From NCBI GenBank assembly GCA_947453205.1, contig CANGFT010000010.1, positions 1 to 64,000 of the forward strand: 64,000 nt of DNA, read 5' to 3'. Position 1 is the first letter of the stretch, and every line of letters begins with the position of its first letter. A model generated the notes under the pieces. That model was not told where the DNA came from and did no database searches. It saw nothing but the letters and a program-made list of their open reading frames with translations. Both the position numbers and the translations under genes were made by a program. Source of the DNA: Beijerinckiaceae bacterium (GTDB lineage: Bacteria > Pseudomonadota > Alphaproteobacteria > Rhizobiales > Beijerinckiaceae). Below are positions 1,637 to 2,541 of the stretch, in pieces.

Positions 1637-1951
1637 TCAGTCGGTTTTGGCGTCGACCGCCGCCAGCCCCGTCGCCGCCTGAGCCGGAGCCGTCTCGACA
1701 ATCTCGAAAACCGGACGCCGCCCCATGGCCCAGGCCAGTTCCGCCACGCGGCTGAGGCTCAGATCCTTGTGGCCTCGAAGCTCGCGGCTGATGACCGAAC
1801 GGTTCACCCCGATGGCGCGCGCAAGGTCGCTCTGGGTCAGCCCGCGCTTTTGAGACTCCTCGGCCAGGGCTTTCTGCAGCTCCCGCCGAACGCGCGACAC
1901 GAACCGACCGGCCGCCTGATCCTTAGGGGAAATCGTAATTCGAAACGACAT
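1637..1951 (-). CDS. XRE-family helix-turn-helix regulator, putative antitoxin
   Basis: MSFRITISPKDQ...RGLTQSDLARAIGVNRSVISRELRGHKDLSLSRVAELAWAMGRRP: classic HTH_3. Overlaps the upstream toxin-like ORF by 29 bp. Confidence 0.8.
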   Translation of the reverse strand: MSFRITISPKDQAAGRFVSRVRRELQKALAEESQKRGLTQSDLARAIGVNRSVISRELRGHKDLSLSRVAELAWAMGRRPVFEIVETAPAQAATGLAAVDAKTD

Positions 1952-2417
1952 CGTTCGGATCCTCGCCAGGAATGAACTTGGGCTGGTCAAGCGGAAGCTG
2001 ACTCCGCCAGTAGGCGGCCATGTTGGCGTAACCGACGTAGAGGTTATGGCTTTTCACCTTGAAGGCGGTGTCGATGGCGGCCATTACGAAACAATCCTTC
2101 ATCACGAACCACCCGAAGATCCGCAAATCAGCCGTTTTGAGCTCCCAGACGCCGTCCTGAATATGCGTCAAGGGTTTGAACATGCGATCAAAGGTCAGCC
2201 TCTCTCCCGCGCAAAAAACCTCCAGCAGCGCGTCGAATTGCTGAATTGGACTGAGCTCCACCCGCCATTGCGAGACATAGGTCGGCAATTCCTTCTGAAG
2301 TGTGGGAAGCAACCGGGCAAGCGCATAGACGCTTCGCCATTCAAGCTCCTCAGCCTCCAGCGCCGGATCAAGCCTGATCAACTCTCCTGCGCCGACCAAT
2401 TCTACGAGTGTTGACAT
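1923..2417 (-). CDS. Putative RelE/HigB-like toxin with N-terminal extension
   Basis: VWELKTADLRIFGWFVMKDCFVMAAIDTAFKVKSHNLYVGYANMAAYWRSQL resembles the HigB/RelE beta-strand core; gene order toxin-then-XRE as in higBA. ATG at 2417 (track uses GTG at 2429). Confidence 0.5.
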   Translation of the reverse strand: MSTLVELVGAGELIRLDPALEAEELEWRSVYALARLLPTLQKELPTYVSQWRVELSPIQQFDALLEVFCAGERLTFDRMFKPLTHIQDGVWELKTADLRIFGWFVMKDCFVMAAIDTAFKVKSHNLYVGYANMAAYWRSQLPLDQPKFIPGEDPNDVVSNYDFP

Positions 2418-2430
2418 GAGAGTCAACACT
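2407..2430. promoter_or_regulatory. Perfect inverted repeat AGTGTTGAC-N6-GTCAACACT, candidate XRE operator
   Basis: 9-bp perfect arms (2407..2415, 2422..2430) spanning the ATG of the toxin-like ORF. Confidence 0.65.
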
Positions 2431-2541
2431 TTCTCATCTGCATGCCCGTCACAGCATCAGAGCAGACAAACCTGATCGAATGGGGGGCGACACAGATCAT
2501 CCCCAAACAATGGCCCACAAAAAGCAAAGGTCAAGCACTCT

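Follow-up and report, generated by a model that had tools for sequence, protein, structure and literature searches.

A putative toxin-first toxin-antitoxin pair with a conserved inverted repeat over the toxin start codon

Introduction

The S. pneumoniae toxin-antitoxin complex in PDB entries 6af3 and 6af4 is a HigBA pair. In the Gp49-type module higBA2 of A. baumannii, the toxin gene comes first and the XRE antitoxin gene second, and the antitoxin represses the operon promoter (PMC5906591). HigA-type antitoxins repress promoters that are overlapped by their operators, and an internal antitoxin promoter predicted in A. baumannii higBA2 was found inactive when tested (PMC5906591). The TAC system of M. 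tuberculosis joins a HigB-type toxin, an antitoxin and a SecB-like third gene in one operon (PMC9098466), and paaR2-paaA2-parE2 combines a prophage-borne toxin of the RelE/ParE superfamily with a third gene, whose product is a regulator (PMC8630535). At issue in toxin-first modules is how they keep the antitoxin in excess.

We analysed a locus of two genes, A and X, in a stretch of 64,000 nucleotides from a Beijerinckiaceae bacterium, referred to as the window. Like A. baumannii higBA2 (PMC5906591), the pair is toxin-first with the XRE gene second, and the best structural match of the predicted model of gene A is the S. pneumoniae complex (6af3/6af4). Unlike in either of those modules, the putative operator of the family is fixed over the toxin start codon, and the usual partner is a gene of the DUF6941 family. 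Most relatives resemble TAC (PMC9098466) in that one operon holds a putative HigB-type toxin, its antitoxin and a further gene, but this third gene is DUF6941, a family without evident SecB similarity, and the window locus is without it. Those carried by prophages recall paaR2-paaA2-parE2 (PMC8630535) in their putative toxin of the RelE/ParE superfamily and their third gene, but here the XRE gene stands between toxin and DUF6941. We consider the window locus to be probably a toxin-first, HigBA-like type II toxin-antitoxin pair, with a putative repressor site over the toxin start and weak toxin translation. An operator, and possibly a promoter, built around the toxin start codon would give a direct and testable answer to the question of antitoxin excess.

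Gene anatomy and genomic setting

The features of the locus are as follows.

1637..1951, minus strand: gene X, ATG at 1951, 104 aa; XRE/HTH_3 (HTH_37-like) protein, putative antitoxin and repressor
1923..2417, minus strand: gene A, ATG at 2417, stop at 1923, 164 aa; putative RelE/HigB-fold toxin
1960..1964, minus strand: Shine-Dalgarno-like GAGGA before the XRE ATG, from anti-SD pairing energy
2399..2404, minus strand: -10-like TAGAAT in codons 5-7 of gene A, promoter-like match
2407..2430, no strand: putative operator, a perfect 9-bp inverted repeat, AGTGTTGAC-N6-GTCAACACT, spanning the ATG of gene A, whose A and G fall at conserved dyad positions
2421..2426, minus strand: -35-like TTGACT within the left operator half, promoter-like match

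An earlier reading of the locus, made from the letters without database searches (the sequence-only reading), had described a 164-aa minus-strand ORF overlapping a small XRE gene in toxin-first order, and a perfect inverted repeat across the first start codon. All of this was borne out: the ORFs run from 2417 to 1923 and from 1951 to 1637 with a 29-bp overlap, the toxin-first order is kept in nearly all relatives, and the repeat is present at 2407-2430, over the ATG, with a 6-nt spacer. Gene X matches Pfam HTH_3 (2.9e-8) and HTH_37 (1.2e-6), both above cut-off. Compared with close relatives, both genes are under purifying selection, with dN/dS of 0.12-0.16 for gene A and 0.04-0.06 for gene X.

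The window copy is chromosomal. It is flanked by trmFO and a dienelactone-hydrolase-like (DLH) gene, and only 4 bp separate the end of gene X from the convergent trmFO. The order trmFO-X-A-DLH recurs in two other species, in one of which (L003/L119) gene A has a TAG codon and gene X is intact and 93% identical; this is the pattern expected if loss of the toxin is harmless and loss of the antitoxin is not. Elsewhere in the same genome there are two toxin-like genes of the Gp49 family (PF05973; L097, L105).

Predicted fold and distribution of gene A

Gene A is an unannotated toxin-like family without a name. It had no match in Pfam, NCBIfam, PADLOC or the PDB sequences and gave only noise against PHROGs, and we found no description of the family in a search of mainly freely available literature. 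Relatives are sparse: of the genomes searched, 7 out of 398 in the order had one, as did 7 out of 51 in the genus. Besides related genomes, they are found on rhizobial, Bosea and Niveispirillum megaplasmids and, by profile search, on 18 viral contigs.

The AlphaFold model of gene A, built from 27 sequences with the plasmid-collection loci left out, had a pLDDT of 91 and a pTM of 0.87, with five concordant models at 88-91, and the best model of an earlier 10-sequence run agreed with it. Residues ~29-140 follow the order beta-alpha-alpha-beta-beta-beta-alpha, which is that of RelE, with an extra strand at 80-87. The nine best Foldseek matches in the PDB were all toxins of the RelE/HigB superfamily, headed by chains of the S. 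pneumoniae complex, and an independent model was similar; the E-values were marginal (0.015-0.25 over the nine, 0.015-0.08 for the top ones) and the TM-scores by target mostly 0.4-0.6. Thus the resemblance to RelE/HigB that the sequence-only reading had proposed stands at the level of the predicted fold, but not as membership of a sequence family. Neither curated models nor profile comparison placed gene A in the HigB, Gp49 or RelE families. By hhalign, it aligned to Gp49 relatives over 15 columns at 9.5% probability, although in the expected register (VWELK/WELK against EIR), and a control comparison of its profile with DUF6941 was null. Since the fold matches were marginal and no sequence profile supported them, we kept gene A out of Pfam HigB and Gp49. 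The same reading had also proposed an N-terminal extension of ~90 aa. With the RelE core at about residues 29-140 of the model, the extra residues instead come to about 28 at the N terminus and 24 at the C terminus, and in these, as in its lack of detectable sequence membership, gene A differs from the S. pneumoniae and A. baumannii modules.

The most likely role of gene A is that of a RelE-fold RNase, and we hold with moderate confidence that it works like a HigB toxin, which gene X would neutralise. The main alternative is that gene A is no toxin at all but serves a different purpose on a RelE-like scaffold, as part of an accessory or regulatory prophage module made up of A, X and DUF6941. 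Such a module would fit the missing toxin-family match, the absence from gene A of the KK that Gp49 toxins conserve after beta-4, and the position of the cassette behind CI-like repressors in several phage contigs. It is harder to reconcile with the overlapping, toxin-first arrangement beside an XRE gene of the HTH_37 type, with the RelE-like fold matches, with the broken toxin beside an intact antitoxin in L003/L119, or with the conserved basic residues K94, R99 and R138. Across the 27 sequences, K/R94 and R99 are present in all, and Y127 and R138 in 26 each. We therefore regard a non-toxin role as unlikely, and retain the toxin-antitoxin reading.

A cassette with DUF6941, often in phages

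The usual arrangement among relatives is a cassette A-XRE-DUF6941, often in contigs of phages or prophages. In nearly all of them, gene A overlaps the XRE gene, which in turn overlaps or abuts the third gene, DUF6941 (PF22091; for example L009, L010, L021, L022, L026, L032-L034 and L062). At that place no DUF6941 gene was present in the window locus or its closest relatives (L002, L003, L017 and others), and the family may belong to the system. Profile searches of the PDB gave no relative of DUF6941, and no paper naming it was found in the literature searched.

In four viral copies (L038, L042, L045, L087) the cassette lies directly behind a gene for a CI-like repressor and is read the same way; another (L035) follows an endolysin, and those of L009 and L062 sit among tail genes. 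The cassette is often carried by temperate phages, and the gene A family with its DUF6941 partner is a candidate for a part in phage-phage or phage-host conflict.

Two rearranged forms were observed. L020 (G694) lacks the XRE gene, so that DUF6941 immediately follows the operator and a shortened gene A; this is apparently what a deletion has left. In L008/L025 gene A is turned round to face an XRE-DUF6941 pair convergently, and the start-codon dyad is absent.

Conservation of the start-codon dyad

Taken by itself, the repeat is unexceptional: when up to two mismatches are allowed, 0.87 copies of GTTGAC-N6-GTCAAC are expected in the window. The exact 18-mer core has one copy in the 4.2-Mb genome; tolerating at most one mismatch gives 11 sites, and a reversed control gives 7. 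Among 328 genomes of the order, this site is the single occurrence of the sequence GTTGACTNNNATGNCAACA.

We aligned the start-codon regions of 37 gene A relatives, 34 after removal of near-duplicates. A block, TTGTTGAC(T)T(N2)ATG(N)CAACA, occupies one fixed position in these 34 sequences, and conservation is limited to about -12 to +11, with almost no information further upstream and no conserved promoter element beyond -12 in the alignment. GTTGAC stands exactly at -10 to -5 in 29 of the 34. Across the dyad, T(-3) could pair with A(+1) in 30 of them and C(-5) with G(+3) in 33. Codon 2 is NCA in 30 of 34, encoding A, S, P or T, whereas only 21% of such codons elsewhere in the same genes end in CA (p=4e-16; this and the p-values below treat related sequences as independent). 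That the codon keeps its form while the amino acid varies points to a constraint on the nucleotides. Synonymous sites should be saturated at 30-50% protein identity, as dS has reached about 0.8-1 by 75-82% identity. The ATG of gene A comes straight after a TAA stop in L005 and L017, so that the left half of the dyad cannot be coding there.

The viral loci had been found through the peptide pattern DLRIFGWF, and the dyad motif was therefore not selected for. Conversely, a scan of viral contigs for the motif alone (TTGTTGACNNNNATGGCAACA) gave 41 sites, 12 of which lie at the start of an ORF of 100 aa or more, and 11 of these 12 are gene A. Because homologs that have diverged still keep the dyad on their start codon and the motif alone recovers the family, it is more than a chance repeat. 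Its conservation at the nucleotide level, at a fixed position on the start codon, is the evolutionary behaviour of an operator, which is what the palindrome had been proposed to be. Exceptions exist: L006, L008 and L011 have no start-codon dyad, the Rhizobium loci keep the left half only, and L012/L018 carry a symmetric GTTGCC-N6-GGCAAC, but with a broken gene A. In L046 a second operator-like repeat (TTGTTGACTTTAAAATCAACTA, about 1525-1560) was seen just upstream of the start-codon one.

Could the dyad act in the mRNA instead, as a hairpin that hides the AUG of gene A and controls translation, through structure or through binding of X or A to RNA? The window hairpin is perfect, has a predicted energy of -13.1 kcal/mol and traps the AUG. 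Among relatives, however, the -6/+4 pair is mismatched in 26 of 34 (usually A/G), and many of the hairpins are weaker than -5 kcal/mol. The same bases are fixed even though their pairing is not, which favours a DNA-binding site over an RNA hairpin and leaves translational control improbable. Covariation between the two halves was not significant (p=0.18), because the halves hardly vary. A chance repeat combined with protein-level conservation of an N-terminal M-A/S-T is most improbable of all: a 9-bp repeat is not rare and threonine 3 fixes the AC of the right half, but neither explains the constancy of codon 2, a left half placed before the ATG, in L005 and L017 outside any coding sequence, or the near lack of conservation further upstream.

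Proposed control of the operon

If the dyad is an operator, X would bind it as a dimer over the start codon of gene A, A perhaps acting as co-repressor, and block transcription that enters the operon from upstream. The conservation of the dyad at this position suggests that the antitoxin shuts its own operon where toxin synthesis begins.

Translation signals differ between the two genes. In the window, anti-SD pairing reaches -6.4 kcal/mol for the XRE gene against -2.7 for gene A, and pairing of -4 kcal/mol or better was found for X in 24 of 34 relatives and for A in 9 of 36 (p=0.001), in counts that rest on automatically chosen XRE starts, possibly wrong in some loci. Gene A has no well-placed Shine-Dalgarno site; the dyad fills that place, so toxin translation is expected to be intrinsically weak. 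Together with the Shine-Dalgarno site of X itself, this would bias output to the antitoxin.

A promoter-like site, TTGACT-16-TAGAAT (2426-2399), matches at 10 of 12 positions and is the sole such site in 1550-2650, where 0.2 are expected. The ATG of gene A falls in its spacer, and a transcript from it would begin near 2392, downstream of that ATG. Because the -10 lies as far in as codons 5-7, with the -35 inside the dyad, such transcripts would be without the toxin start codon. Where codon 5 encodes L, I or V, it is NTA in 11 of 13 relatives, compared with 14% elsewhere (p=4e-8). This bias suggests that the -10 is selected in the clade of the window and not in others; at least four matches to TATAAT at exactly 16 nt occur in 10 of 31 sequences, nearly all from that clade, so the -10 is not general. 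In this clade, bound X would also block the promoter of which the left dyad half is the -35. It is conceivable, though we consider it doubtful, that about 32 bp combine operator, toxin start codon and promoter into a nested control element, in which the autoregulated promoter makes antitoxin mRNA only and the toxin is made only from upstream transcripts that pass the repressor. Immediately past the stop codon of the DLH-like gene upstream, the window (about 2507-2515, minus strand), L002 and L003 have CTTGACC, and this element common to three close relatives may be part of an upstream promoter.
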